Shown in pieces: positions 1 through 64,000 of a DNA stretch of 64,000 nucleotides. Position numbers and translations under genes: made by a program. A model generated the notes under the pieces. It had not been told where the DNA came from, ran no database searches, and saw nothing but the letters and a program-made list of their open reading frames with translations. The DNA is taken from NCBI RefSeq assembly GCF_028583425.1, contig NC_072790.1:159272397-159336396 (forward strand), read 5' to 3'. Source of the stretch: Eublepharis macularius. Lineage: Eukaryota; Chordata; Lepidosauria; Squamata; Eublepharidae. Numbering within the stretch: the first letter of the stretch is position 1; every line of letters starts with the position of its first letter.

Positions 1-234
1 TGCTCCATGCCTCACATTGGAGTGACTACATCCACCGATGGCCTTCTTAGTTGTTGGAGGGGGTGGAGGGGGGGGAGGAAGGAAACAACGCACTCCTGCC
101 CACTCTATCTGGGGCCTAGGTGACCAAATTGCTTGGCCTTGGCAAGGAGCCAGTGGTGGGGCAGCACTGGTTCTGGGGCCCCGTCCAGAACATTTGTCCA
201 GGGCCCCAAAATCACCTAGACTGTCTCTGGAAAA

Positions 235-11467: not shown

Positions 11468-14400
11468 AGAAACACCCCCCCCCCCGCTTGGCTTTGAGTT
11501 GTGGGGGTCCGGTTCAGCCTCGAACATGCGGGACATGAAGTCCGCGTCCACATGCCGTGCCCCCTGGCGGTACTTGACGGTGAATTGGAAGGGTACGAGG
11601 GAGAGGTACCACCGTAGCACCCTGGGGTTGTGCGCCTTCATGCGATGGAGCCACTACAGGGTGCATGGTCCGTCAGCAGTACAAAGGGGTTGTTGGCCAG
11701 GTAGTACTGCAGGGCCCCCACCGCCCACTTGACCGCTAGGGCCTCCCGCTCCACTGTGGCGTAGCGCTTCTCGGCAGGCTGGAGCTTCCGGCTTAGGAAC
11801 AGAATCGGGACATCCACGCCATCCCGCTCCTGGGTCAGCACAGCCCCGAGGCCGGTGTCCGAGGCATCTGTGGCCAGTGTGAAGGGCCGGTCAAAGTCCG
11901 GGTTCCATAGGGTAGTGGCGCTGGAGAGGGCTGACCGCAGTCCTTAAAAGCTGCATCTAGTTCTGGGGTCCACTGGACTTGGTTGGGCAGCCCCTTCCTT
12001 AAGCGGTCTGTCAGGGGCGCCGCTCGGGAGGCAAAGTGGGGGATGAACCGTCCATAATACCCCAGCAGTCCTAGGAATCGCCGAACCTGCTTCTTGGTCT
12101 TGGGCTGTGGGGCGTCGGCTATGGAGGCCACCTTGTCCGGTGGTGGCCTGACTCGTCCTCCCCCAACCACGAAGCTCAGGTATTGGAGTTTCTGGAACCC
12201 CAGGTGGCTCTTCTTTGGGTTCTCCATTAGCCCAGCTCGTTGGAGGGCCCTTAAGACGGCTCCCAGGTGTTGGAGGTGGGTGGGCCAGTCGGGGCTGAAG
12301 ATGATAATATCATCAATGTACGCCATGGCATACGCCCGGCACTCTCCCAGCACCTGGTCCACCAGCCGCTGAAAGGTGGCCACCGCCCCATGCAGGCCAG
12401 ACGGAATCTTCTTGAATTGGAAGAGGCCTTGTGGGGTGGCAAAGGCCGTCTTCTCCCGGTCCTCCGGCCGTACGGGCACCTGCCAGTAGCCCTTTGTTAA
12501 GTCCAGGGCAGACAGGTAACGGGCGGACCCCAGGTGGTCCACCAGCACATCTGCTCAGGGCATGGGGTAGGCGTCGAACTGGGCCACCTTATTCAGTTCG
12601 CAATAGTCGATGAAAAACCAGGTGGTCCCATCTAGCTTGGGCACGAGGACTATTGGGCTTCTCCAGGCACTCCGGGAGGGTTCGATTACACCCAGCCAGA
12701 GCATCTCGTCTGTCTCCTTCTCCACTGCCTTCCACCGCTTCCTGGGGATGGGGCACCAGGTAGCCCGGGCTGTCTGCCCTGGGTCAGTCGGGATGGCATG
12801 TTGAATCAGGCTGGTGCTGCCCGGCCTGCGGGAGAAGACCCCGGGAACCCGTGCACAGAGTTCTCCTAGCTGGGCCCGTTGAGCTGAATCAAGCCGGGGG
12901 TCCACCTTGGGCTCCTCAAACTCCGGGGCTTCGGAGGTCCATGGCAGCTCACTGTCAGGAAGCTCCAACAGGTCCTCGGCCATGCCACACTCCTCCTCTG
13001 GGCGCTCATGCCACCGCTTCAGGAGATTCATGTGCAGGGTCCTCCACCGACGCCGGCCAACCCCGCACTGGACTTCGTAGGTAGTGGGGCCCAGCACCCT
13101 CCGGACCAGGTAGGGGCCCCTCCATGGGTCCCCTTCCTCTCTGGGAAATACCGAGTGGTGCACCAGGACTTTCTCTCCAGCCTGGAAAGCCCTCATCTGT
13201 GCACCCCGGTCGTAGGCAGCTTTCTGCTTCGCCCGTGTGCGAGTCAGTCTGCGGTTCGCCTCGGCTTGGGACTGTTGCACCCAGTTACGGAGTTGGCTTA
13301 TGTATTCCTGTGTGGTGGGCGCAGGGCTGCTGGCCTGGGGCCCCCAGCGTTCTGTCAGCCAGGAGAGCATCCCTCTTGGCTTGCGCCCATACAGCAGCTC
13401 GAACGGGCTGAAGCCAGTGGAGGCCTGCGGGGTTTCCCTGAGGGCAAACATGAGTGGGTCGATGTACAGGTCCCACTGGTGAGGCTTGTCCCGTGTCATC
13501 TTCTTCAGGGCCTCTTTGATGGTCTCATTCAGCCGCTCTACAAACCATCTGTCTGAGGGTGGTAAGCCGAGGGGAACACCTGTCGGATCCCCAAATTCCG
13601 GCAGAGTTGGCGCTTGGCTGTGGCACGGAACGGGCCCCCTCGATCCGTCAAGATTTCATCCGGCAGCCCCACCATCGCGAAGAGCTTGGACAGTGCCCAG
13701 ACCACCCCCGGGGTCTGCATGGTCCTCAGTGGGATGACTTTGGGGAACCGCGTGGCGTAGTCCACAATCACCAGGGCAAAGCGGTGGCCCTGGGGTGTGT
13801 GTGGCAGTGGTCTGATGAAGTCCATCACGATGCGTTGGAAGGGCGTCTCCATGACGGGTAGTGGGGAGAGGGGGGCCTTCGGTGGGCGGCAGGCTGCCAC
13901 CCGCTGGCAGGTGGGACACGAGCGGCAGTGGGCCTTCATGTCAGCATTCACGGAGGGCCAGAAGAACTGCTCGAGGATCTTCTTCAGGGTCTTGTGGTGC
14001 CCCAGATGCCCGGCCCACGCATGCTCATGGGCCGTGCGGAGGACTTCGGCCCGGTAGGCCACCATCACCAATAGCTGACGGACCTCTCCCTGGCCATTTG
14101 GGGCGCGAGCTATGCGAACCCAAACCCCTCCTTGCTTCTTGATGTGCGGGAGCCGTTGGGACCTCCACTCATCCCGCACTAGCTCCTCCTCACGAGCTGC
14201 TGTTTCTCACAAGCACTGCAAGGACTCATCTGCCCCTTGGGCATCACAGAATGGGCAATCGGCCGAAGGCCCAGATGGGTCTTCAGTCCGGGGTCCTGTC
14301 CCTATTCTGGTGGAGGGACCCTCGCCCAGGTTGTCGGCCTCCTCCACTTGCAGAGCGGTGGCAACTTGTGGGTCTGCCAATTCCCCTGCTGCCTCCGGCC

Positions 14401-15479
14401 GTAGCCCGGCGATCCCGGGGGCGTCTCTTCCCAATTTCTCCGCTGCCTGCTGGAGGAGCCTGAAGAACCCTGGGGCATCTCTTCCCAGCAGCACTGGCAC
14501 GGGTAGGTGGGCTACCCGGGCAACTTCCATTTGGTGGCGGACCCCTAGGTACTCTACCGTGATTAGGGCTGTAGGGTACGGCTGGGTGCGGCCCATCACA
14601 TCCGTCACCGGGATCCAGCGGTGCGCTGGGGTGGCAGCTGGGAGGAGTTGGGGTCGAATTGCTGAGACTGCACTCCCAGAGTCCAATAGGGCTTGTAGGA
14701 TCAGCCGGCCTATCCTCACGGTGGCGTATAGACTCTGTACCTGCTTGCCGGGCAGTGGGTTACTTTCCCACACGAAGGCACAAACCCTTGGCAAGGCCTC
14801 TATGAGCGCGCCAGCTTGCATCCGCGGCTCCACTGCCTGTGCTAGTTCCGCTGGAGCGGCTTGGTAGGCTGCCTCCAGCTTTCCCCACATCCTATCCGGG
14901 CGTTCCTCCCGCCCCAGTCTGAGCTCCGCTGGGGCAGCGGCCTGGGGAGGCCGGCCCTTGACTCGCGCCTGCGTCGGAATGTCTCTCCCTGTATGGGCCA
15001 CCAACTTGTCAGGGCTTGCCACAGCTGCCGCTGGGCGTGGCGCTGGGCGAGGCGCTGGGCGATCTGCTCCTGATGTCACAAGGGGGCCAGGGGTTCTGCA
15101 GGACCCTGCTCTGTGGAAGGAGGGGCAGTATACATCACCCTGACTCCCTCTCAATCCACTCGCTGGCCTGCTCAACCTGGCCTGCTTACCCCCTGCATCT
15201 TCCACCATCTCTTCTTCCCAGTACTCTCCTTCAAGCCTCCACTCTCCTTCTTGCCTTTTTCTTGGCTTCTCTCCACTCCAACTCCGCTCCATCACTCCTC
15301 CTCAAACCCACCACCTCAGGGCTCTTCCGAGCCAGCTTTTATAGGGCTTCCTTCTACTGTCCCACCCCTCTTCCAGCCTGGTCTTGGGTTGCACCAAGCA
15401 GTTGCAGCTGGGGTAGCTGATCTGGCTCCACTGACCAGCACCAGCTGTTCTCTGGCTGCCCAGCCTCCCTGCCTTGGCT

Positions 15480-16095: not shown

Positions 16096-17430
16096 AAGCA
16101 AATATTCTTCTTCATTCAAGCAACTCCCCAAGCACAAATTGTAATATCCTCCAGTTTTTTGAAAACTGATGTAAAGGATAGTATAAAGCATGAAGCTAAC
16201 CCATCTCAGATGTGAATAGACTGAGTAATATAGGGCTTTGAAGGCAAGGATAAGACTGGGTACATGACAAGAACAAAATAAAATTAATGGACAGTAGTAG
16301 GAGCATAGCTCAGAATGACAAGTGACAAGGGGATCTATTTTGGTTAAGGCATATAAGGATCACTATAGGAATGTGATTGGTCTATTAGGACCGAGATAAA
16401 AAATAAATACTACAAAATCGCTATGGAATATTCAAAAACCATGAGCAAAATGAGAGTAAATGGGATATGTTGGTTTTTCATGACAGACCTAATAAAAAAT
16501 TAGTTCATTTTACAATCTTGAAATTCCAGATACTCTACCCTTTTAGTAAACTCTATTTACGTATTAATATAATTCACATTTGTGTATATTAGTAATTATT
16601 TATTATAAATTTTTCTTCTGCTTATTGCTAATTTTACTACATTTTCTCATAGCTCTAAAATATCTAACACAAGAATTCCTTTAAGAGTACATCGTTCTCA
16701 ACAGAACATAGCAATGAAGTAGCTTTAGAAATAGGGTATTTTGCCAAATAAATGTTCAATTCTCTATGTAAACCAGGCATGGTTGATGTGAGGCTCGTCC
16801 TGCTCCTGGCTGGTCCTGTTGCTTTCGGCTACTGCCATAGAGGTCCTGGAGGGGCCAAACTGTGGGTCCCAAGCCTCAGAAAGAGAGGTGGGTTAATGTC
16901 ACCCGTGACTCCCCTATTTCTCTCTTGGATGAGCTCCTGGGCTACCTTGCCAGACATTCTCCACTCCTCTCTGGCTTGTTACAGGAGTCCCCTTCACCAC
17001 TCCCAGCCTCCAACCCCCCCCCCATCCCTGCCTCCAGTAATCTAGTCACTGCCCAGGCTGCCATAGGCAGCCTCACGTGCTGCTGCCCTGTTGTCGGCCC
17101 CACCTGTCACCTTCCACCCTCCTCCACCCTGTGTGCCTGCTCACTGTACTGCTGTCCTCCTTTGGCCTGCCCCAGGGCTGGGCACCCACTGCGTGCAGTG
17201 TTCCCTGCTGCCGCAAGGCCACTAGCCATAGCAGTGCCTCCCTGGTGGCCCTACTTCACAAGCCACCCTTCCCCTGCCTGGTTCTGTGCTGGGGCACTGC
17301 CCTGCCTCGCTCTCTCTGCCAATACCAAGCTGCTGCCCATGGCAGTGCTGGCTTGCCAGCTTCATCTCCCAAGCCACTTTCCTCTGATTCGGCTGCCAGG
17401 CTGCTGGGCCTCCCAAGGAAAATTTAACAG
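16096..17430. other. AT-rich flank, then a GC-rich unassigned block
   Basis: 16096-16740 is AT-rich and featureless. 16750-17425 turns GC-rich with Pro/Leu/Cys-rich frames in several phases. No domain or splice pattern supports a gene. The abrupt composition change suggests an unrecognised insert that ends next to the hammerhead-like repeat at 17430. Confidence 0.4.
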
Positions 17431-17490
17431 ATCAGGGAGATTTTTAGGGTATAAGCTTTTGAGAGTCAAATCTCCCTGCATCAGATACAA
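17430..17490 (-). other. Hammerhead-like motif repeat
   Basis: Minus strand: CTGATGC, an extra A, arm GGGAG, loop ATTTGA, arm CTCTC, then AAAAGCTTATACCC. The arms pair with one G-U wobble. The core is degenerate compared with the copy at 41014-41050. Confidence 0.5.
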
Positions 17491-20098: not shown

Positions 20099-22114
20099 CT
20101 GAAGAATTTAAAGACCAGGTAAGGAACACATTTATAATACTAAGTTTAATTGATCGTTAGCCAGAAGAACTATGGGCTGAAACCAGAGATATTATCAAGG
20201 AAGAATGTGCAAAGACTATTCCTGTAGCCAAAAGGAATAGTCTTTTGAAGGAGAAGCCTAAATGGATGACTGAGGAAACTCTTAAAATTGCTAAAGACAG
20301 ACGGGAAGCAAAAGCAAAAAGTGACAGAAATAGTCAGAATTCTAAATGCAGCTTTTCAACTATCTACACGCAGATACAAAGAAATCTATAATAATAACCA
20401 GAGCAAAGAAATAGAACAACAAAAAAGGAAGAACAAGAGATCTGTTCCACAAGATCTGGGAAATCAAAGGGAAATTCAAGCCACGGCTTGGGATGCTGAA
20501 AGATCAACATGGAAATACAGTATCTGATCAGGACAAAATAAAGGAAAGATGGAAACAATACACTGAAGAACTATACAGAAGAGATGGAAAGATGACAGAT
20601 ATTTTTGATGAAGCATTCTTTGATGAAGAACCAGAAATCTTAGAAAGTGAAGTAAAAGCTGCACTCAAAGCAATTGGGAGAAACAAAACACCTGGAGTAA
20701 ATGGAATACTAATAGAGCTACTTCAAGCTACAGAAATGGAGTCATCAGAATCTTAACAAGAATCTGTCAACAAATATGGAAAACAAAACAATGGCCCACA
20801 GACTGGAAACGCTCAGTCTACATTCCAATCCCCAAAAAAGTGCAACAACTATCGGACTATTGCATTAAGTTCCCAAGCAAGCGAAGTGATGCTCAAGATT
20901 CTACAGCAAAGACTCTTACCATTTATGGAACAAGAAATGACAGATGTTCAAGCTGGGTTCAGGAAAGGAAGAGGCACTAGAGATCACATTGCAAATTTAT
21001 GATGGCTAATGGAACGCACCATGGAATTTCAGAAGAAAATCAGCATGTGTTTTATTGATTACAGCAAAGCTTTTGATTGCGTGGATCACGAAAAGCTATG
21101 GATAGTGTTAAAAGAAGTGGGGATGCCACACCATCTGATTGTTTTAATGCACAATCTGTACTCTGGAAAGAGGCTATTATTAGGACAAAATATGGGGAAA
21201 CAGAATGGTTTCCAACTGGCAAAGGTGTCAGACAAGGATGCATATTATCTCCCTACCTGTTCAACCTCTATGCAGAGCATATCGTAAGAAAAGCTGGATT
21301 AGATCTAGAAGAAGCTGGAGTGAAAATTGGTGGAAGGAACATTTTACAATTTGAGATATGCAGATGACACCACGTTACTGGCAGAAAATAGTGAAGATTT
21401 GAAACAACTACTGATGAAGGTTAAAAGAGAAAGTGCCAAAGCAGGATTACATCTGAACATCAAGAAGACAAAAGTAATGACTACTGAAGAGTTACACAGT
21501 TTTAAAGTTGACAGTGAGGAAATTGAAATTGTCCAAGATTTCTATTCCTTGGCTCACTCATCAACCTACAGGGAGACTGCAGCGAGGAAATCAGGAGACT
21601 GAGACTTGGAAGAGCAGAGGTGAGGGAGCTAGATAAAATCCTTAAAGATAAAGATGTCTCTCCGGAAACCAAGATCAAGATAATCCAAACAATGGTATTC
21701 CCCATTACGACGTATGGATGTGAAAGTTGGACAGTGAAGAAAGCTGACAGGAAGAAAATTGATTCATTTGAAATGTGGTGCTGGAGGAGAGTTCTGCGGA
21801 TACCGCAAAAAGACAAATAAGTGGGTAGTAGATCAAATCAAGACTGAATTCCCCCTAGAAACTAAAATGACAAAACTGAGGCTATTGTACTTTGGTCACA
21901 TCATGAGAAGACAAGATTCTCTGGAAAAGTCAATAATGCGAGGAAAAGTAGAAGGCAATAGGAAAAGAGGAAGACCCAAAACAAGACGGCTTGACTCAAT
22001 AAAAGAAGCCACGTCCTCCAGTTTGCAGGATCTGAGCAAGTTTGTTAAGGATAGGACATTTTGGAGGTCTTTCATTCATAGGGTCGCCATAGGTCGGAGG
22101 CGACTTGACGGCAC

Positions 22115-22118
<4 letters not shown>

Positions 22119-23084: not shown

Positions 23085-23760
23085 GGGAAATTATAATGAT
23101 TACATAAAGATCCCTACAAGCAAGTGGTGGTGTTTCTCATTTAATAGTTTAGGCTGGTTCTATATAAATCATCATCACCTTCATCAATATTTCTAATTCT
23201 CAACATGACTCCATCTGCAGATACTTAAATTGGTGGATAAGTGCCATGGAGACAGAAAGCAGGTTTTTCTGCAAACTTGAGGGAACCCCCAGGTTTGTAG
23301 AAAAATCTGAAAACTTAAAAAAAAATTGAGGGGGGATTAAATCTCCCCAAGGCCCCAATACTCCTCTACCACCCACCTGCAGTTTCACTGCCTGAACAGC
23401 AAAGTGGAGGATGAGTCATGGCTTGCTTCACTGTGCTGCCACTAAGGTGGTGAAGTGGCGGGCAAACAGGCCCAGGAGGTGTTGCTGCTCCCTCTCTCCA
23501 CTGGGCAGGGGACGAGCAGAGTTACAGCTCACCCCCGTGGGGGAGGAGGGTGGTGAGGTGGCTGCAGCAGAAGCGACCATGATCTGGCTGGGGGATGGGC
23601 AGCTGGGTGAGGGAGGAGTCACAGCTGGCTGCCTAGCACAGGGGCAACTATGTGGGTGGGCAGGGGAGGAAAGCTGCTATCCAGCAATACTGTCCTCCTT
23701 TCCACCTTCCAGATATGATGTCATAAATCTGCCCTCCAAAACTGCCATTTCCTCCAGGGG
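23085..23760. other. No gene recognised
   Basis: Contains a GC-rich patch (23410-23680) with frames on both strands that look like composition artefacts. Near 23730-23765 a short piece of the TAGGGTTGCC hAT family (TTTCCTCCAGGGGAACAGAT) is visible. Confidence 0.4.
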
Positions 23761-23764
23761 AACA

Positions 23765-23930
23765 GATCTCAAGAGTCAAAGCTCCCTCCTTCAGATACAG
23801 TTATCTTCAAGTATCTGAAGAAGCAAGCTTTGACTCTCAAAAGCTTATACTCTGAAAATCTTGTTGGTCTCAAAGGTGCCACTGGACTCAAATCCTGCTG
23901 TTCTACTGCAGACCAACACAGCTACCTAAC
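23765..23930 (+). other. Inverted pair of hammerhead-like motif repeats
   Basis: A minus-strand copy (about 23768-23797) and a plus-strand copy (about 23814-23850) face each other across 12 nt. They form an inverted repeat with outer ends GAGTCAAAGCT / AAGCTTTGACTC and inner ends CTTCAGATAC / GTATCTGAAG. The plus copy continues into the common tail (AATCTTGTTGGTCTC, then GCAGACCAACACAGCTACCT, ending about 23930). The arms of the core hairpin are partly decayed. Confidence 0.6.
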
Positions 23931-24133: not shown

Positions 24134-24386
24134 GAGAGCCAGTTTGGTGCAGCGGTTAAGAGCACAGGACTCTAATCTGGAGAACCAGGTTTAATTCCTC
24201 ACTCCTCCACTTGAAGCCAGCTGGGTGACCTTGGGTTAGTCACAGCTTCTAGCTCTCTCAGCCCCACCCACCTCACAGGGTGTTTTGTTGTGGGGATAAT
24301 AATGACATACTTTGTAAACTGCTCTAAGTAGGTGTTAAGTCATCCTGAAGGGCAGTATATAAATTGAATGTTATTGTTATTATTTG
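24134..24386 (+). repeat. MIR-like tRNA-derived SINE
   Basis: The tRNA head has an A box (TTGGTGCAGCGGTTAAGAG) and a B box (GGTTTAATTCC), followed by the GGGTGACCTTGGG core shared with MIR. The tail is TAAACTGCTCTAAG then GGCAGTATATAAAT with a TTATTATT end. Two further copies lie at 47310 and 49556. Confidence 0.85.
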
Positions 24387-24640
24387 TTTCTACAAATATC
24401 TAAAGAAACCATTAGCTCCAGCCCTGATCACACATAAAAATAAGGATGCAAGCAGGCTTGGCGAAAAATGTCTTCTCCCTCTAATAATGTGTGGAAAAGG
24501 CAGTTGAAGATTTTCATGGCATGGAAATAAATAACATTACCTGGTAAATAACATACCATTAAATCTCTAATAAAAAAGGACATATTTTTCCTCTAGGGAG
24601 TTGGAATCCCTACCTAAAAAACAGCCCAGTACAATGATAG

Positions 24641-24893
24641 ATGATGTATTGTCGAAGGCTTTCACGGCCGGAGAACGATGGTTGTTGTGGGTTTTCCGGG
24701 CTGTATTGCCGTCGTCTTGGCATTGTAGTTCCTGACGTTGGGACTGTGTCACAGCACTGTGACACTGAGAGATCTCTGTCTTTTGGTGCTACACCTCTGA
24801 AGATGGCAGCCACAGCTGCTGGTGAAACGTCAGGAACTACAATGCCAAGACCACCGCAATACAGCCCGGAAAACCCACAACCACCATGTTCTT
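24641..24893. mobile_element. Penelope-like repeat arranged as an inverted pair
   Basis: The block GTTGTGGGTTTTCCGGGCTG, then TTGGCATTGTAGTTCCTGACG, occurs forward (24678-24737) and reversed (about 24826-24890), about 90 bp apart. Between them lies CTCTGAAGATGGCAGCCACAG and GTGAAACGTC. The same sequence returns at 63748-64000. I associate this repeat with Penelope-like elements from its resemblance to their terminal repeats; no protein part is present here. Confidence 0.55.
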
Positions 24894-24999
24894 TTTATGT
24901 TTGTGAGCAAGGAGCTTTTTCGATAAGCCATAAAAAGCTAAAACTGTATTGCATTCATGTACTGCCATCTACTGGCTATTGTAAGAAATAAACTATAAC

Positions 25000-27799: not shown

Positions 27800-27895
27800 G
27801 CAGTTAGATCTCAACTCTCAAAAGCTTATATCCTGGAAAATCTCATTGGTCTACTGAACTCAAATCTTGCTCTTCTATTGCTGACCAGCATGACC
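27800..27895 (+). other. Hammerhead-like repeat, 3' part
   Basis: Contains ACTCTCAAAAGCTTATATCC and the common tail (GGAAAATCTCATTGGTCT, then CTGACCAGCATGACCTGAA). The CTGANGA half of the core has been lost. Confidence 0.5.
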
Positions 27896-40600: not shown

Positions 40601-43179
40601 AGTGTCATCTCACTTATGGAATGCCCTTTTCCTTGAGGCTTGCCTGATATCTATATCATTTTTTTAGGCCCCAGGCCAAAACATTTCTGTTCACCCAGGC
40701 TTTTAATTAAGGGGTTTATTTTTTAACTATGTTTTAGTCTGGAAACTTATTTTAAACTCTCAGTAATCTTTTTAAGTCAGAGTTCCGTAATCTTTTAAAA
40801 TATATGGGATCCTTTCAAAATCTAACAGAGGGTGAGGGGCACAACCACAAATGGCTGCCAAAGGAGTAAGAGAGATTAAATGTTAGCGAGATTAAGCACA
40901 GCTCTTCAACATTTCAGATTTAAACTCTGATTAACAGAATGCCTTTTAAAATTAACATATTTTTAAAATCAAAAAGAGTCCAGTAGCACCTTTAAGACTA
41001 ACCAATTTTATTGCAGCATAAGCTTTCGAGAATCAAGTTCTCTTCGTCAGATGCCTGATACAAACTGGTCAAATACAGAAGAGGAGGGGGGAGAGGGGAG
41101 AGAAGGAGAGGAGGGACAAGATGCAATTAGGGGGGAGGCAACCAAAACAACAAATATCTTCTTACATATATACAAAATAAGGATACATATTGAGCAACCT
41201 AAGAAGCCCTCATTTGGTAGTATCTGTCTTCATACTGTAAGATCCATTTGTAAGATCCAGGTCCAACCCAGGACCAACACAACTACCCACCTGAAACTAC
41301 CTCCATTTTGTACACTCTAACATATTTACACAAAAGGGAAAAGAAAATATGCTGCTTCTCCTGGCTATATCTCCTTTACTTGAGACAAGCCATTTTTAAC
41401 CAGCAATTCAAACCTACAGCCTGACACAACAATAGATAGTGCTGGTGAGAATTCCTGCGCATGTGTATACTAAGAGAGAGATTCTGATAGGAACACAGAT
41501 GATTTTTGAAAAGTGACCAAAATTTAATGTAGTGATCTTAGTGAACTTCTACACAAATAAAAAACATACATTCCAATTGGGACGATCTGATGACTTCAAT
41601 AGAGGTTGCAGCTAGCTGCATTAAGCATTTTAGCTGTGCAACCCAATTGGGTTTAGTCTGAAGTCCCTCTAGATTTTTAGAAAATCAATCTGTTATTTAC
41701 ACAGGTAAAATCCTTTACATAAGGCCACTGTCAGTATTACTCCATAAACAAAGAAACAACTCAAAAAGCTCCACTAGGTCTCACCCACTTCTAAAAACAT
41801 CTGGTACAAGAAAAGGTGTTGGTAGGCACCATGGGCACAACATTGGGAGCCATACTATAAACAAAAGGGGCCCTAATACAAACAAACCTCCAAATGTGAA
41901 CAAATTATGGATTGATCCAAATTTCTTCAGTTTGTGAAAGAAACTTTATCAGAAAATGTGTATGTTGTTCAGAATAGTCCAAGACCTGCAACTATAACCA
42001 GTACCATTATCTTCCACCAGCATATGAAGACGTTAAAATTTATTTTTATTTACATTATTTATAGCATTTTGTATCATTTACCAACTCTTCTTCTCACTCC
42101 AGAAGGGCATTTACTTTAGCTAGAAGTTCAACTCTACCCTCTGCCGTTCTGGAAGGAAAGTTTAAAGCTGTCCCTTACTCTCTTAGGCTTTGTTCCTGTC
42201 CCCTAAGAGAAATTGACTCAATGGAGCACATCTTCTTTAACTGCCCAAGTCATAGTAAAATTAGAGCGGAAACCATCAGTCCATTAGTAGAAAGATTCCC
42301 TGGAAGTTCAAATAAAATCAAACTTGATTATCTTTTGTCTGATCGGAATTACCAGACAACACGTCAAGTAGCAAGATTCTGTGCCCAGGTCTACAAGCAA
42401 CGTAAATCACATAAGGCAGCTTAAACAACTAATTTATGATGATCTTATTTTTTTACTCTTATATTTATTCATTGTTCTTCCCCTGTATCCAGTCTCAACT
42501 GTTTTTAAACTGATTTGCAAATGGTTTTATATGTACTGGTCACATACTGTAATAATAAACTTGATTTGACTATTCTTCTGTTTATGTTTTTAAATGCATA
42601 TATATGGGCTTTCCATTGTTGTTCACCGCCTTGGGGGCCCTGACTAGATGGAAAAGCAGAATAAAAATATTTTAAATAAACAATAATAAATTTGTGGTCG
42701 GATATGAGCTTTCGTGAGTCACAGCTCACTTCTTCAGATGCCAATAATACATTGTTATTATTTAACCCTCCCCTGAACAACACCCTTGTCCTCCCCTCAG
42801 AAAGTCAACCGCATCAAGGGGTAGCAGCACAGCGATTAAGACCGAGGGGGAGAACCTCACCTGGCTCGCACTCCAGTATAAGTGGCGGGCGCCTGCCGGT
42901 GAGCTGCAGGCCTTGGTAGTCACCTAGCCGGGAGCCCACAACACGCGCCAGGTCGGGGCAGGCGATAAACCTTCGCAGCGGCGGAGGGGCCCGGCTGTTC
43001 TCCATGACCGCCCGGGTGGCCTCAGCTGCCTCTGGGATCCGCAGAGGAAAGTGAGCTTTTGCCAAGCAATGACGACTCTCGCTTTGTCCTGCTAGGCCTC
43101 GCACTGCGTGCCACAAACCGGCCAAGGCCGGCGCCAGCACCAAAGGCCTCCCTGACAGCGCAGGCGGAGACATCGCCAT
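31418..43179 (-). CDS. TFB2M: TFB2M, mitochondrial transcription factor B2 (8 exons)
   Basis: TFB2M is the mitochondrial transcription initiation factor that joins POLRMT and TFAM and melts the promoter. It descends from the KsgA/Dim1 rRNA adenine dimethyltransferases. Eight exons give 1200 bp, 399 residues plus stop (human has 396), in one frame with GT-AG introns throughout. The N-terminus is basic and poor in acidic residues, as expected for a mitochondrial presequence. The SAM-binding motif I reads LECEPGPGILT (about residues 102-112), followed by VIALES (122-127) and VVHCDFF (148-154). Further matches to human are [43 protein letters not shown] and, near the C-terminus, WLYHSLED. Introns are 3175, 218, 779, 841, 3406, 835 and 1308 bp. 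The start is the first of two close ATGs (43179, 43173); the frame upstream has no ATG. Confidence 0.96.
32910..33061 (-). CDS. TFB2M: TFB2M exon 7
   Basis: The 152-bp exon encodes [20 protein letters not shown], then [20 protein letters not shown] and KLVDKL. The acceptor is ACATACAG and the donor TTAAA followed by GTAAGT. The exon 6-7 junction is about three residues shorter than in human. A CAG three bases further in could act as an alternative acceptor. Confidence 0.94.
33561..33595 (+). repeat. Poly(A) run with flanking direct repeats
   Basis: AAAGTAAGACAC occurs at 33561-33572 and 33584-33595, separated only by C and ten A residues. This is the layout of a retroposed insertion reduced to its poly(A) tail, with a 12-bp target duplication. 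It lies in TFB2M intron 6. Confidence 0.65.
33897..33959 (-). CDS. TFB2M: TFB2M exon 6
   Basis: The 63-bp exon encodes [20 protein letters not shown] and V. It is too short for ordinary ORF listing and was found by its conserved EPWSSF motif. The acceptor is CTTCTAG and the donor GTGTG followed by GTAAGC. Confidence 0.93.
34000..36810. other. TFB2M intron 5, mostly unassigned
   Basis: 34555-35560 is richer in G+C and has frames on both strands, but nothing was recognised. 35560-35960 contains a run of purine-rich sequence with a 66-residue Lys/Arg-rich frame on the plus strand that I regard as chance. No splice-flanked coding segment beyond the TFB2M exons was found. Confidence 0.45.
36815..37110 (+). 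repeat. 5S-rRNA-derived SINE
   Basis: The head is clearly 5S rRNA: GAGGCTAAGCAGGGTCAGCC (box A), TTGGTTAGTAATTGGATGGG (intermediate element and box C) and AGACTTCC. These are the internal promoter parts of a type 1 RNA polymerase III gene. The tail TGTTGGACTAGATGGACAAC, then GATCTGATCCAGCAG, is shared by other squamate SINEs. It lies in TFB2M intron 5 and is too diverged to be a working 5S gene. Confidence 0.85.
37366..37455 (-). CDS. TFB2M: TFB2M exon 5
   Basis: The 90-bp exon encodes [20 protein letters not shown], then [10 protein letters not shown]. The acceptor is TTGCCAG and the donor CACATG followed by GTAAAT. Human reads PDLYHVLSVIWQLACEIKV here. Confidence 0.95.
38297..38445 (-). 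CDS. TFB2M: TFB2M exon 4
   Basis: The 149-bp exon encodes [20 protein letters not shown], then [20 protein letters not shown] and FVSEKEYK. The acceptor is AAAACAG and the donor ACAAG followed by GTAACT. The open frame extends into the introns on both sides but is not coding there. Confidence 0.95.
38700..39180. repeat. Dispersed LINE-like repeat in TFB2M intron 3
   Basis: Segments such as TTGTAAGCCATCTTTCTACC, AGAGCCCCCAAGGTGG and GAGAAGGCCCTTTCTTGGG match phrases I know from squamate LINE 3' ends. The order suggests two overlapping degenerate LINE fragments. The family is not assigned. Confidence 0.45.
39225..39378 (-). CDS. TFB2M: TFB2M exon 3
   Basis: The 154-bp exon encodes [20 protein letters not shown], then [15 protein letters not shown] and VPWTA. 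The acceptor is TTTTAG and the donor GCAG followed by GTAAAT. The last base begins Asp188, completed by exon 4. Confidence 0.95.
39597..39685 (-). CDS. TFB2M: TFB2M exon 2
   Basis: The 89-bp exon encodes [10 protein letters not shown], then [15 protein letters not shown]. The acceptor is TTTTTAG and the donor CTGGAG followed by GTACTT. It completes methyltransferase motif I and supplies the acidic residue of motif II. Confidence 0.95.
40580..40770 (+). mobile_element. CR1-type LINE 3' fragment
   Basis: Holds GGGCTTTTTCAGTAGTG, TTATGGAATGCCCTTTTCC and CAGGCCAAAACATTTCTG, then TCACCCAGGCTTTTAA. These encode and follow the AFSxxxxLWNxLP end of a CR1 protein. It lies in TFB2M intron 1. Confidence 0.7.
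40970..41060 (-). other. Hammerhead-like motif repeat, best copy
   Basis: Minus strand: CTGACGA, one extra A, arm GAGAA, loop CTTGA, arm TTCTC, then GAAA, GCTTATGCTG, followed by AATAAAATTGGTTAGTCTTA and AGGTGCTACTGGACTC. CTGANGA plus GAAA around a hairpin is the hammerhead ribozyme core. An AGC/GCT stem with a TTAT loop could be helix III. The extra A before helix II, and a G where the cleavage base should be, argue against activity of this copy. Confidence 0.6.
42130..42560 (+). mobile_element. Non-LTR retrotransposon 3' remnant
   Basis: A frame reads [20 protein letters not shown], then [14 protein letters not shown] and ends AARQ-like at about 42424. The C-x-H-x-C pattern with MEHIFFNCP is the zinc-knuckle-like C-terminus of several LINE proteins. 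The tail ends AATAATAAACTTGATTTGAC (about 42550), resembling the tiny insert in BovB at 20052-20087. The clade is not assigned. Confidence 0.55.
42690..42742 (-). other. Hammerhead-like motif repeat
   Basis: Minus strand: CTGAAGA, an extra A, arm GTGAG, loop CTGTGA, arm CTCAC, then GAAA and GCTCATATCC. The five-bp stem is perfect and differs from the 41014-41050 copy at paired positions. It lies in TFB2M intron 1, near the donor of exon 1. Confidence 0.6.
42861..43179 (-). CDS. TFB2M: TFB2M exon 1
   Basis: Encodes residues 1-106 and the first base of Gly107: presequence ([20 protein letters not shown]), then [13 protein letters not shown] and [10 protein letters not shown]. The donor is GCCAG followed by GTGAGG. 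It ends at the same protein position as the human exon, inside the SAM-binding motif. Confidence 0.95.
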
Positions 43180-47309: not shown

Positions 47310-47566
47310 AGAGCCAGTTTGGTGTAGTGGTTAAGAGTGCGGAACTCTAATCTAGAGAACCAGGTTTGATTCCCCACTCTTCCACTTGAAGGTCAGCTGG
47401 GTGACCTTGGGTCAGTCCCAGCTCTCTTGGAGCTCTCTCACCCACCCACCTCACAGGGTGTTTTGTTGTGGGGATGATAACAAAATACTTTGTAAACCGC
47501 TCTGAGTGAGCATTAAGTTGTCCTGAAGGGTGGTATATAAATCAAATGTTATTATTATTAATGTTA
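47310..47566 (+). repeat. MIR-like tRNA-derived SINE
   Basis: Best-kept copy in the window. A box TTGGTGTAGTGGTTAAGAG, B box GGTTTGATTCC, core GGGTGACCTTGGGTCAG, and tail TAAACCGCTCTGAG, then GGTGGTATATAAATC and TTATTATTATT. Confidence 0.88.
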
Positions 47567-47999
47567 GCAACTGTTCAAAACAGGAAATGCTGCCTTGTAC
47601 TACTTTTAAGTTAAATATTGGATGCAAAGAATATCAGTGTTAGACTCATTTGTATATTCATAGCTAACAGTTTAAACCTGAATTGTGTGTTTGAAAGAGT
47701 ATTTTTTATAGCTAGAAGGGCAGGATCATCACTGTACATTAAGCATTAGATTGAAATCTACATGTGTTCAGAGAAGCGGATAAACATTTTTTTTAAAGAA
47801 AATCTTATCCAGAAGAAAAGTATTTTGGTGTTTGTTGCTGAAAGAAGTAATTTGTTTACTGAACCTTTGTCACAGCTTTCAAGAACATTTTTTTAGCCTT
47901 CAGTTTAATCATTAGGAAATCAGCAAGGATTCCAGCAGTCCATCTTTAAAAATATAATTTTAAAAATGTAACAGGAATTTAAGAGGTAATAGTCAACAA

Positions 48000-48100
48000 G
48001 ATGAAACTGAAGAAAGGAGCTCTGACTGTCAATAACTTACACCCTGAAAATCTTGTTGGTCTCTAAAGTGCCACTGGACTCAAATCGTGCAACTGAAACT
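48000..48100 (+). other. Hammerhead-like repeat, degenerate copy
   Basis: CTGAAGA at 48007, a decayed arm pair (GGAG / CTGTC), then AATAACTTACACCC and the family tail GAAAATCTTGTTGGTCTCTA and GTGCCACTGGACTCAAATC. Confidence 0.45.
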
Positions 48101-48899: not shown

Positions 48900-50640
48900 T
48901 TTTGACCAAAGTTTGACCCTGGACCCATTCCAATCCAGCTTCCGGCCCGGTCATGGTACAGAGACAGTTCTGGTCGTCCTAACAGATGATTTGCGGTGAC
49001 TCTTGGATCAGGGCGAGTCAACCATGATCTTTTGGCTCACTGCCTCTCCACTGTAGGGATCCGTGGGACAGCCCTGCAATGGCTGAGCTCCTTTTTCCAT
49101 GGTTGGGGACAGAGGGTGGCACTAGGCGAACAGTTGTCTGCCCACTATTCTTTGGTGTGCAGCATTCCTCAGGGGGCAATTCTTTCCCAAAGTTATTTAA
49201 CATCTATATGTGTCCCCTTGCCCAGGTGTTTCGTAGCTTTGGGCTGGTCTGTCACCAGTATGCTGATGACACCCAGCTCTGTCTGTTGATAGGCGGCCAG
49301 TGAGATGTTGCCCTGGACTCTTTGGCCTCGTACCTGGAAGCTGTGGCAGAATGGTTGTGTCAGAGTCACCTGAAGTTGGATCCCCAGAAGACAGGTTCTG
49401 TATGTGGGTTGTGGGGTGATGGAATTGGGAATCTGGCTCCCAGCCCTCAATGGAGTGCAGCTGCACTCAGTGAAAAGCCTGGGTGTGCTCCAGGCTGCCA
49501 CACTTTCGTCCATGATGAAGAACCTGGGTGTGCTCCTGGATGCCACACTTCCTGGATGCCAGTTTTGTGTAGTGGTTAAGAGCACGGGACTCTAATCTGG
49601 AGAACTGGGTTTGATTCCTCACTTCTCCACTTGAAGGCAGCTGGGTGACCTTGGGTCAGTCACAGCTTCTAGCTCTCTCAGCCTCACCCACCTCACAGGG
49701 TGTTTTGTTATGGGGATAATAATCACATACTTTGTAAATCACTCTGAGTGGGTGTTAAGTCATCCTGAAGGGTGGTATATAAATCAAACATTATTATTCT
49801 ATGGAGGCCCAGATTTGCATTTGCCAGCTGTTGCCAGATCTGCATTTTTTCATCTTCGGCAGGTCAGGCAATTGGTGCCCTATCTTTTGCCCGAGGACCT
49901 AGCTTCAGTAATCCATGCAACAGTCACTTCTAGACTGGACTACTGCAACTCATTCTACTCTGGGCCACCTTTGGGCTTCACCCAGAAGTTACGGCTAGTT
50001 CAGAATGCAGCAGCATGCATCCTTACAGGGACTCCGTTTAGGGTGCACATCTGTCCTATGTTGTGCCAGCTGCACTGGCTCACAGATCCAGTTCAAGGTA
50101 CTGGTTTTAGTATTTAAAGCCCTCCACAGACTGGGACCTACATACCTATGGGACTGCCTCTCCCATTATGTTCTCCACAGGGACTTGCACTCTGCGGACA
50201 AGCAACTTCTGGTCGTCCCTAGCGCGAGGGACATTTGGCTGGCTTTAACTAGGGTCAGGGCTTTTTCTGCCCTGGCCACAGCCTGGTGGAATGCCCTCCT
50301 AGTGGAGATCTGGGCCATATGGGACCTTTTACAGTTCCACAGGATCTACAAGACGGAGATGTTCCACTGGGCCTTTGACTAGGGGCCAGCTTTTGTCTCC
50401 CCCTTCTGACCGCTTTTGCAGCCGCCCTGGAGTTACATCATGGTGGTGCCCGTGGTTTATGGTGATTTTGCAGTAGCCTGATTTGTCTAGTGGCACCTGA
50501 ATTTTATGCTATTTGGATTAATGTGTTAGTAATGTTTTTATTGTATTTCAAGGGTATATTTTGTTGGAAGCCGCCCTGACCTGTTTGTGGGAAGGGCAGG
50601 GTATAAGTTGAATAAAATGAAATAAATAAATAAATATGTT
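48900..50640 (+). mobile_element. CR1-type LINE, 3' part, interrupted by a SINE
   Basis: Frames encode the end of the reverse transcriptase (PQGAILSQ, then YADDTQLCL with the catalytic YADD at about 49259) and the C-terminal domain (TSRLDYCNSFYSGP, LRLVQNAAACILTG, AFSALATAWWNALL). The stop is at about 50380. The 3' UTR ends AAGCCGCCCTGACC, GGGCAGGGTATAAG and ATAAATAAATAAAT. The SINE at 49556-49798 interrupts it. Several frameshifts and stops make it inactive, and the endonuclease half is missing. Confidence 0.85.
49556..49798 (+). repeat. MIR-like SINE inserted in the CR1 LINE
   Basis: Full SINE from TGCCAGTTTTGTGTAGTGG (A box) through GGTTTGATTCC (B box) to GGTGGTATATAAATC and ATTATTATTC. 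LINE coding sequence lies on both sides (KTGSVCGLW before, FHLRQVRQLVPYLLPEDLAS after), so the SINE is the younger insertion. Confidence 0.85.
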
Positions 50641-52079: not shown

Positions 52080-53030
52080 TGAGATTTTGTATGAGATATT
52101 AATTCACTATCAGCACTTGTCACTTTATAAAAACATACAAGTGATTCTATATACATTTTTGCATATTTTCCTCCTGTGCTGATTGCTGTGCTTTTATAAA
52201 TGCAGCATTGAATTTCAAGTCTTGAAAGCAACACAATTACTGTAATTCACCTGTTTCTCTGCACAATTATTGTGCAGTCTAGAATAAATGTATACTTTAT
52301 TGGCCTAATCCTACTTAGAAACCTGAAAAATACTGTTTTAATTTTGACATTTTTGGAAGCGTTTATCTATTTTTACCATAAGACATCTCTTCTAGGTGAT
52401 ATAAATCCTACTTCATGGACTTGCAAATGATATATTTTACAAGTGGGGACCTGCAAGACTTGCTTGCTGTTCCTCAACTGTGCTGCTCCTGCAGGCCTAG
52501 CTGATGAAGCAGAAGTACTCAGGCTACAACTCTTCCCCTCCCACAGCAAACTTGCAGGAAAAGGGAATCTCGCTTCCCCCAATGCTTCTCTGCCCTTCCC
52601 TTGCTACCCTGCTGCTCCATCTGTCCCCCCACCACCACCATTTTGCAGAGAGTGGTGGGAGGGGGGGCAGTGGTTGCTTCTGCCTTTTCCCTTGTATTCG
52701 GGCTTAAGCAGTGTCATCCTTCTCCAGCACTTCATAGTGAGAGGATGGATGCTGTACTTGCATAGATAATGTTCGGCAGGGGTGGGGTTATCACCTCTTT
52801 AATTTTTTAAAGATTTCATATTGTTCTGTAAACTCTCCAAGTTTGTAGAAAATTTTTCCCTTTCTGCATGGCCCTGCCTCACAGTTATAATTATCCACAG
52901 ATGGCACCATATTGAGAATTAAAGGTAATGCTAATGTAAAAGTTCCCATTATTGAACAAAAGAACTTCAGAGAGAGTCTCCAGAATGAAACTGATGAATT
53001 AAAAGAGCATGGTTTCCATCCAATAGCACC
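52080..53030. other. CNST intron, no feature recognised
   Basis: A C-rich patch at 52500-52700 gives open frames in two phases. No domain or splice signals support coding. Confidence 0.4.
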
Positions 53031-53031
53031 T

Positions 53032-53130
53032 TATCTGGTGAAGGGAGTTTACCTCTTGAAAGTTTATACCCTGGACATCTTGTTGGTCTGAAATCTGCAG
53101 CAGACCAACACAGCTGTCCACCTGAAACAA
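53032..53130 (+). other. Hammerhead-like motif repeat
   Basis: CTGGTGA, an extra A, arm GGGAG, loop TTTAC, arm CTCTT, then GAAAGTTTATACCC and the family tail ATCTTGTTGGTCTG and GCAGACCAACACAGCTGTCC. The arms still pair through two G-U wobbles. Confidence 0.5.
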
Positions 53131-55388: not shown

Positions 55389-55744
55389 CACAGGGGCAGC
55401 AGTTGGGGGGAAGACAAATTCTACTTGTAGTTCTAAGGGTTCTCTTTCCAGTTAGCTGAAATAATTATCTTAAATGATTACAAGAAGCATCGAATACCGA
55501 TTTGAAGCAGGTAATGAGTGACCTGAATTACAGAATTTTGAATTTGAGACAGTAATTCACTTAATATAGAAAGTAAAATTATAAAATGTTATTATGTGTG
55601 ATCAAGTTGCTTTCAACGTATGGCAACCTTATGAACTAATGACCTTCAAAACAGCCTATCATTAACTGCCTTGCTCAGGTCTTTGCAAACTAGAAGCCAT
55701 AGTTTCCTTTGTTGATTCCAGCCATCTCATTTTGGGTTCTTCGT

Positions 55745-55887
55745 TGGTAAGTGTCTTCATTGTAAAATTTTGAGCATCATGTTGCTTGCATGGTAAATTA
55801 ATGTGATGGCCCAGTACTTGCTGTAATCTTTGACATCTTGTTTTTTGGAACTGGAATATACATTTAGCATTTCCCATCTGTGGGCCA
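55745..55887 (-). repeat. Duplicated BovB segment, displaced copy
   Basis: A 143-bp near-identical copy (about two differences) of 56542-56684. On the minus strand both read SSSKKQDVKDYSKYW, then TLIYHASNMMLKILQ, corresponding to the BovB IPKKGDxKDCSNYRxIALIS region. This copy sits out of place inside the C-terminal domain. Confidence 0.85.
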
Positions 55888-56541
55888 GCAGGAAAAGGTT
55901 CCTGCTGCCTTCCACTTTTCCTAGCATTATTGTCTTTTCCAGTGAGTCTTGACTTCTCATGATGTGTCATGTACAATAGCCTCTGTTTTGTCATTTTAGC
56001 TTCTAGGGAAAATTCAAACTTGATTGGATCTAGAACCCACTCATTTGTCTTTTTGGCCATCTGTGGTATCCATAAAACTTCTCCAACACCACATTTCAAA
56101 TGAATTGATTTTCTGCCTGTCGGCTTCCTTCACTGTCTAACTTTTCCATCCATACATAGTAATGGAGAGTACATAGTGTGGGTTATCTTGATCCACAAAA
56201 AGACACCTCTCTCCTTAAGGATCCTATCTAGTTCCTTCATGGTTGCTCTTCCAAGTCTAAGTCTCCTGATTTCTTGATTGTAGCTTCCCCTTTGGTTGAC
56301 GACTGAACCGAGGAATAGAAAATCTTTAAAAATGTCTTCATTGTTAACCTTAAAATGGCATGATTCTTCAGTAGTCATTATTTCTGTCTTCTTGATGTTC
56401 AACTGTAATCCTCCTTTGGCACTTTCCCCTTTAACATTCATCAGTAGTCATTTCAAGTCTTCAGTATTTTCTGCCAGTAATGATCTCTAGCGCCTCTTCC
56501 TTTTCTGAATCCAGCTTTCACACCTTTTTTTGTTTCATATA

Positions 56542-56684
56542 TGGTAAGTGTCTTCGTTGTAAAATTTTGAGCATCATGTTGCTTGCATGGTAAATTAATG
56601 TGATGACCCAGTACTTGCTGTAATCTTTGACATCTTGTTTTTTGGAACTGGAATATACATTTAGCATTTCCCATCTGTGGGCCA
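56542..56684 (-). repeat. Duplicated BovB segment, copy in native position
   Basis: Followed on the minus strand by KAGFRKGRGARD, as in intact BovB, so this is the original location. Its partner is 55745-55887. Confidence 0.85.
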
Positions 56685-56829
56685 TTATTTTTACAAATAG
56701 ACAAATTGCAGTTGTCACTTTTTTCTCTTCTTGCATTACATATTCCCATTTGAATCTGCAATATTGTGGGCATAGTTTTTTTAACTGAGATTCTCAGATT
56801 TTGAAGAGAAATCGCAGGAACCAAACATT

Positions 56830-57405
56830 TTTCTGTTTAGACATTTTCTGTTTTATCAAATATCTGCTATCTCACTTTGAATCTTACATTTTAAAAGAAA
56901 TAAAGTACTTGGACAAGATGTGTTTTATATCTTGGCTATCCTCTTGAGAGAGAAAGAGGCTTTCTGAGCCCTTAGTACGGCTGTTTGAGTTCAGTGTATA
57001 TGTTAAACTTCATAGACAACCTAATGGCTTGGCATGCCTTCTAGAGTTATATGCTTTCCCCAGCTCACTGATCTAAAATGTAGTCCTGATCCTGTTGGGG
57101 TGATCACATTCCAGTGAATGTTACCTCCCTGGACAGAGTATATAATTATCCTATTACACTTCAAAGTGCCATCTTCATTAACTACATTGCTCACTTCTCA
57201 AGAATACTTCCTGCAAGGCGTGGACCTTCATGACAGTTGATGACCACTAGTATTCTATGAAATAATACTATTTGATTAGATGACTCAGCTGGGTGACTAA
57301 ATTGTTTCAGTTTATTGTGTGTTCCCAAGAACTTTAGTAAATAGGAGGATAATGGATTTTGAGATGATCGTTTGGGAGAACTGAAATGTTGATAGAGAAA
57401 CATAC
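56830..57405. other. CNST intron, no feature recognised
   Basis: AT-rich spacer between the BovB remnant and the GC-rich block. Confidence 0.4.
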
Positions 57406-63745: not shown

Positions 63746-63747
63746 TA

Positions 63748-64000
63748 GTTGGTTGTTGTGGGTTTTCCGGGCTGTATTGCCGTGGTCTTGGCATTGTAGT
63801 TCCTGACGTTTCGCCAGCAGCTGTGGCTGGCATCTTCAGAGGTGTAGCACCAAAAGACAGAGATCTCTCAGTGTCACAGTGTGGAAAAGGTGTTGGCAGG
63901 TCATTTATATCTACTCAGGAGGGGTGGGGTTGAGCTGAGTCATCCTGTAAGAGTTTCCCAGGGTGTGGAATGCTAATGGCGGGAGGCTTCACTGTATCCT
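63748..64000. mobile_element. Penelope-like repeat, cut by the window edge
   Basis: GTTGTGGGTTTTCCGGGCTG, then TTGGCATTGTAGTTCCTGACG and TTTCGCCAGCAGCTGTGGC, repeats the sequence at 24678-24893 and continues further. On the minus strand CTGAAGA, T, arm GCCAGC, loop CACAGCT, arm GCTGGC and GAAAC form a hammerhead-like core with a perfect 6-bp stem (63804-63841). Confidence 0.6.

Follow-up and report, generated by a model that had tools for sequence, protein, structure and literature searches.

A dispersed motif in a 64,000-nt stretch of the Eublepharis macularius genome (NCBI RefSeq assembly GCF_028583425.1, contig NC_072790.1, positions 159,272,397 to 159,336,396 of the forward strand; this whole stretch is called the window below) is, judged from its sequence, very probably a minimal hammerhead of type I, located close to the downstream end of the pseudo-long terminal repeat (pLTR) of an endonuclease-positive Penelope-like retrotransposon, here named family A. 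The motif is numbered by what we take to be the type I hammerhead convention. Stem I of family A (GCAT/ATGC, GTAT/ATAC) was overlooked in an earlier note on this DNA, as was a second hammerhead family (family B) at 24797 (+) and 63839 (-).

A full descriptor with stems I and II, a loopless stem III, an NUH cut and 0 or 1 extra nucleotide, written after both sites had been seen, matches the window only at 41050 (-) and 63839 (-), both with the extra nucleotide; 60 first-order Markov copies of the window contain no match. The hammerhead at 41050 has the following parts.

41016..41054 (-): best-preserved family A hammerhead, from its sequence, the descriptor match and a minimum-energy fold with stems I and II
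41054-41051 and 41019-41016 (-): stem I, GCAT/ATGC
41050-41044 (-): core CTGACGA, with the extra A at 41043
41042-41038 and 41032-41028 (-): stem II, GAGAA/TTCTC
41027-41024 (-): GAAA, with a loopless stem III, A-G/C-U
between 41020 and 41019 (-): predicted cut

The site reads GCAT-CTGACGA-A-GAGAA cttga TTCTC-GAAAGCTT up to the predicted cut and ATGC after it, and in the minimum-energy fold of the monomer stems I and II form as drawn. The family A plan consists of stem I GYAU/AURC (GTAT/ATAC in older copies, GTGT/ACAC in one), stem II and a loopless 2-bp stem III, with the predicted cut between GAAAGCUU and AURC. Stem III (A15.1-U16.1 and G15.2-C16.2) has no loop and forms the palindrome AGCU, so that its closure would require a second molecule or a second copy in tandem; the family A hammerhead is therefore presumed to act as a dimer. 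An alternative stem III with a UUAU loop (AGC-UUAU-GCU) was dropped by reasoning, as it would give a G at H17 and no stem I in the copy at 41014 and fails in the ATAC subfamily.

The family B hammerhead at 63839 has the same plan in a different sequence, CCT-CTGAAGA-T-GCCAGC...GCTGGC-GAAACGTC before the cut and AGG after it, again with a loopless 2-bp stem III; the cut triplet is GUC in family B and CUU in family A. Self-cleavage is predicted between GAAAGCUU and AUGC in family A and between GAAACGUC and AGG in family B. Family B is 73-77% identical (best E 2e-14) to the published template of PAc, the Poseidon_Ac element of Anolis carolinensis (green anole), and its ATG at 63839 overlaps A9, as in PAc. 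According to the available part of the PAc study (PMC11167929; all papers are cited here for the parts available), cleavage by the PAc hammerhead was seen only with the protein of this Penelope-like element (PLE), was abolished by C3G or G8C and was partly restored by both mutations together.

Pairing in the stems was counted in three sets of cores. The family A set began with 122 nhmmer matches, of which 120 were parsed into 77 distinct cores, and 53 of these (90 of the 120 copies) passed the filter; here 87% of the cells in the stem alignment pair. For the older subfamily, 88 distinct cores were typed from those listed among 535 GTAT..ATAC matches, and in the 84 with 5-6-nt loops 355 of 420 cells pair, against at most 222 in slid versions. 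The third set holds 13 hand-picked representatives (10 from family A, two from family B, plus PAc): pairing holds in 92 of 104 cells, and 18 cells carry two-sided changes, whereas slid versions give at most 5 such changes and none of 5000 shuffles gives as many. Because relatedness inflates the shuffle tests, the cross-family result was given the most weight, though its rows were chosen by hand. Stems I and II form and covary, modestly inside family A and strongly across families in the hand-picked set. A two-sided change is seen, for example, at the third stem II pair of L115 and L116 (GAAAG/CTTTC; L-numbered loci are copies taken from the genome). The pairing and the two-sided changes support the claim of the earlier note that this is a hammerhead core with compensatory changes.

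That note had also treated the extra nucleotide before helix II as a misfit. We regard it not as a defect but as a natural variant that is already known, because published PAc carries one, as does family B, and because a viroid hammerhead with an extra A is active. In the 53 filtered family A cores the first helix II pair forms in 49 when one nucleotide after A9 is skipped and in 7 without the skip; the extra base is A in 49 of them and G in four, while the 84 older cores have A 82 times and G twice. This suggests that the extra nucleotide is a regular trait of these PLE hammerheads, and it may be one reason why standard covariance models miss them.

The host retroelement is of an already known kind. 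In the 2.24-Gb genome, where all pattern counts are lower bounds, the pattern CTGANGAN{14,22}GAAAGCTTAT has at least 40,150 exact matches (three for the reversed control) and the exact string CGAAAGCTTATGCTGCAATAAA at least 904 (none for the reversed control). Locus L068 has an open reading frame (ORF) with a reverse transcriptase domain (RVT_1, PF00078, E 1.1e-11) between two same-strand hammerhead copies 3.1 kb apart, its first likely ATG lying in or after the tail; upstream of a copy in L070 there is a GIY-YIG domain (PF01541, E 2e-5) whose ORF stops 342 nt short of the GAAA motif. The presence of both domains at related loci points to an endonuclease-positive Penelope-like retrotransposon and bears out the Penelope-like host proposed earlier. 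Direct and inverted pLTRs, an optional 30-40-bp tail and target-site duplications, all traits of PLEs, are present.

Two side observations were made. In L070 (~1700-1810) and other long copies such as L064 and L068, the pLTR carries a decayed head-to-head hammerhead pair at most ~150 nt past the stop codon, which looks like an old insertion that became a fixed part of the element. Locus L138 (positions 131-652; G000:C1:10495400-10497400) contains ten 52-nt tandem units, each with one hammerhead core, inside a head-to-head element; this array is a small hammerhead satellite.

Several results weigh against the assignment. The earlier note had named the lack of any match to a hammerhead model as a refuting result, and the Rfam hammerhead models gave no match at gathering or relaxed thresholds, nor even at E 10 on small regions; this is a detection outcome and not a defining chemical feature. 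A covariance model built from PAc and two family B copies matched the window 19 times and hit no family A copy. The RVT_1 and GIY-YIG matches come from different loci, and a BLASTP comparison of the family A N-terminus with the published N-terminal 78 aa of PAc showed no similarity. In some copies (L121-L123) the extra nucleotide is missing through a deletion that goes with a shortened helix II. Covariation inside each set is limited: in family A 17 cells are two-sided, where shuffles average 8.5 (1 of 2000 as high) and slid versions reach at most 12, and in the older subfamily 11 are, where shuffles average 5.1 (31 of 5000 as high) and slid versions reach at most 7. Moreover, the PAc hammerhead reportedly had no activity unless protein was present and was not needed for insertion in vitro (PMC11167929, in part).

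The motif might accordingly be a hammerhead-derived sequence that no longer works as a ribozyme and has been kept for another role, such as the priming of reverse transcription, protein binding or the joining of complementary DNAs (cDNAs) at ATGCAT. A loopless stem III of just 2 bp, the Rfam result, the insertion of PAc hammerhead mutants in vitro (PMC11167929, in part) and the head-to-head pairs that join exactly at stem I ATGCAT (3 of 23, see below) fit such a relic. Against it, families A and B and PAc all retain the core, the NUH triplet and stems I and II, with changes on both sides of pairs, and PAc, which has the same extra nucleotide, does cleave in the presence of its protein (same source); we consider a relic unlikely, though worth keeping in mind, and prefer a hammerhead that would still cleave.

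Most of the dispersed copies examined are 3′ ends of 5′-truncated insertions. Among 57 copies selected to contain the cut (58 minus one duplicate), 28 end at +53..67 from C11.1 and 24 at +94..109, with five elsewhere; the clusters peak at 64 and 101. Thus 52 of the 57 ends fall into two clusters ~55 and ~92 nt past the predicted cut, or ~86 and ~123 nt from C3. The main published reverse-transcription start of PAc lies 117-124 nt from C3 (PMC11167929, in part), and the far site of family A matches it in distance from C3. Family B copies in the window end ~89-95 nt from C3, with an inverted arm at 125 nt or more. The two sites would be starts of reverse transcription in family A. As in PAc, the ends are downstream of the cut, so the copies look like products of internal initiation on RNA that had stayed uncut at this hammerhead; the hammerhead would cleave tandem transcripts of the PLE, probably in dimeric form or assisted by the element's protein, as described for PAc.

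The earlier suggestion that the cleavage site marks the start or end of a unit is not supported. In the fetched loci and the window we counted 165 raw downstream halves (four in the window), 144 of them distinct by 240-nt context, and most of these loci had been picked for carrying a hammerhead; the upstream half is still attached in 134 of the 144, and not one of the remaining ten starts at the cut. In the decayed window copies at 23765 and 42690, similarity is lost a few nt from the cut (by eye) without a common exact boundary. These data also bear on another reading, a non-autonomous retrozyme or short interspersed nuclear element (SINE) that would spread through circular RNA after self-cleavage. 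The abundance of cores (tens of thousands) and the 10-unit array of 52-nt repeats would suit it, but the reverse transcriptase ORF of L068 is flanked by the same repeat, no copy begins at the cut and the 3′ ends are grouped around two sites downstream of it, as also in PAc; we regard it as extremely unlikely, and keep to the Penelope-like element.

Many insertions are head-to-head pairs, and in these the two kinds of end are combined by a strict rule: all 29 classifiable pairs have one near (untailed) and one far (tailed) end, and three are unclassifiable. The chance of this would be ~2e-9 if ends were independent and equally frequent. In the first 14 pairs, leaving aside the tandem-array locus L138, a tailed end is always opposite a shorter one; the limits of the end classes were set after these pairs, and two later pairs, L144 (66) and L145 (78), are borderline. 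For eight further pairs, the rule was recorded before their analysis, and all eight are tailed/untailed. Of 23 pairs, 21 were classified, all with one end of each kind (L087 and L138 were not); nine more partners were found through the duplications, without a control, and the eight classified among them are opposite, with one unclassified. Common stretches of ≥8 nt surround the whole pair in 12 of the first 14 (3 of 200 mismatched controls), and duplications of ≥8 nt in 21 of 23 (control 9 of 506), being 12-14 nt long in 18 of the 21. Target-site duplications oriented by the tailed end show no motif by eye (GC 0.34).

Among 66 unpaired copies, not deduplicated, 28 are tailed, 30 untailed and eight other. 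After deduplication, 36 of 50 have no duplication in the stretch examined and five have one with no inverted partner (L083 and L101 being the clearest), so that insertions with a single end are probably also present. In the window's family B pair, one end is tailed and the other untailed, and no duplication is evident by eye.

A head-to-head pair could also form when a single cDNA folds back and primes itself, a route put forward for Penelope elements of rotifers. Palindromic junctions do occur, and self-priming is favoured in PMC3846280 (in part); here three of 23 pairs (L069, L124 and L139) are joined precisely at the stem I ATGCAT (gap 6). In 10 of the 23 the two arms have identical hammerhead cores, which counts against priming from both strands, and the other 13 differ mostly by one base, explicable by later mutation. 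Fold-back would be expected to leave the same 3′ end on both arms, yet 29 of 29 pairs are tailed/untailed; the L075 arms carry different loop II variants (CTGTGA and CTTGA), and the duplications flank the whole pair. The unequal ends and the L075 variants favour priming from both target strands over fold-back, which we hold to be distinctly improbable. PAc primes from both target strands in vitro, in line with this preference; against it, the PAc start sites show no strand difference in bulk (PMC11167929, in part).

With both-strand priming, the endonuclease would make a staggered break of ~12-14 nt, each target strand would serve as primer for an RNA of its own, with reverse transcription beginning at the near start on one and at the far start on the other, and the two cDNAs would be joined head-to-head by microhomology, in the three pairs named above exactly at ATGCAT, the 5′ arm of stem I. 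Whether a large share of insertions is two-ended in this manner, with asymmetric coupled priming and a ribozyme stem able to double as a joining site, is a proposal on which we are evenly balanced. A tail on one inverted pLTR was already described (PMC3846280, in part); for the strict rule we found no published statement in the open-licence literature. As a side observation, the head-to-head pairs L139 and L144 give sub-threshold matches to microRNA hairpins in Rfam, and these matches look like the palindromes of the pairs; pairs of this type could be sources of double-stranded RNA if transcribed.

The seven sites of the earlier note are indeed copies of one repeat family, since a profile built from 23814, 48000, 41014 and 53032 recovers the remaining three: 17489-17428 (-) at E 2.5e-11, 42742-42700 (-) at E 1.2e-6 and 23798-23753 (-) at E 3.5e-5. 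It also finds a further fragment, 27807-27874 (+), at E 9.6e-7. By itself the bare core is weak evidence: CTGANGA-N4..20-RAAA occurs 19 times in the window against 8.2 expected (none of 100 shuffles reaches 19). Among the seven, 41014 alone has an intact core and all three stems; 42690 keeps its core with a broken stem I, and the others have altered cores. Of the (G/A)AAA said to be common to the copies, GAAA stands in 41014, 42690 and 53032 only, with AAAA, AATA or GAGA elsewhere. The shared tail was confirmed in 23814 (to 23926) and 53032 (to 53119), while 48000 has its first half only. Copies in the window are as follows.

17428..17489 (-): family A, older subfamily, stem II GGGAG/CTCTC; similarity stops shortly past the cut
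23753..23798 (-): truncated family A arm, head-to-head with the 23804 copy
23804..23926 (+): family A, older subfamily, stem I GTAT/ATAC, AAAA replacing GAAA
23911-23926 (+): tail GACCAACACAGCTACC of the preceding copy
24625..24755 (-): family B arm, tailed end, head-to-head with the 24777 copy
24777..24895 (+): family B, untailed end, one stem II mismatch in the hammerhead
27807..27874 (+): family A fragment, most of the hammerhead absent
40963..41061 (-): family A, untailed 3′ end of a 5′-truncated Penelope-like insertion, from the profile and comparison with genome copies; similarity stops near ...GGACTCTTTTTGATTTT
42700..42742 (-): family A, stem II GTGAG/CTCAC, broken stem I; similarity stops ~6 nt past the predicted cut (by eye)
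47997..48098 (+): family A, core decayed (AATA), without tail
53023..53119 (+): family A, tailed, internal deletion
63746..63859 (-): family B (Poseidon-like PLE), untailed end, 77% identity to PAc, E 2e-14
63842-63802 (-): intact family B hammerhead, stem I CCT/AGG, CTGAAGA, extra T, GCCAGC/GCTGGC, GAAACGTC

The family B arm at 24625..24755 extends to ~+119 (blastn) or +136 (nhmmer) of the PAc ORF. Searches for relatives with two family A patterns in viral contigs and one pattern in genome contigs gave no match; a family B 15-mer has matches in 59 viral contigs, presumably by chance.

Other repeats were noted in the window. At 11835-15301 (-), pieces of a polyprotein that we take to be Gypsy-like lie, by eye, between 300-nt direct repeats (11148 and 15771; 95% identical). 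Two inverted copies of a non-LTR reverse-transcriptase repeat, presumably BovB/RTE-like, occupy 20415-22118 (+) and 55662-56836 (-). One repeat, presumably a tRNA-derived SINE, has three copies at 24135-24382, 47310-47560 and 49555-49802 (families D2, D3 and D9).

For the study of how PLEs insert and of what their hammerheads do, this family offers tens of thousands of footprints in one vertebrate genome. The hammerhead, the two 3′-end sites and the head-to-head structure are placed on one ruler, and two-strand priming versus self-priming becomes testable by counting. Minimal PLE hammerheads lacking helix III were reportedly described by Cervera and De la Pena in 2014 and by Lunse et al. in 2017.

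PLE hammerheads in general resemble family A in their pLTR location, dispersed copies and missing helix III, and reviews state that those without helix III may cleave as dimers (PMC6155905 and PMC7761336, both in part). The plus-strand hammerhead of chrysanthemum chlorotic mottle viroid (CChMVd) shares with family A an extra A between A9 and G10.1, which slows cleavage somewhat, its change to U giving 3-4-fold faster cleavage and raised trans-cleavage (PMC3705267, in part); unlike the elements here, it belongs to a viroid and has loop-loop contacts. Penelope of Adineta vaga has inverted head-to-head pLTRs and palindromic junctions like those found here, with a 31-bp tail on one inverted pLTR; its duplications are 8-10 bp, compared with mostly 12-14 nt here (PMC3846280, in part). 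PAc, parsed from its printed sequence (PMC11167929, in part), shares with families A and B the CUGANGA core, one extra nucleotide, stem II, GAAA and a loopless 2-bp stem III. Family A differs from it in its stems and loops, in an extra nucleotide that is A and not U, in stem III (AG/CU against AC/GU) and in having no start codon inside the hammerhead.

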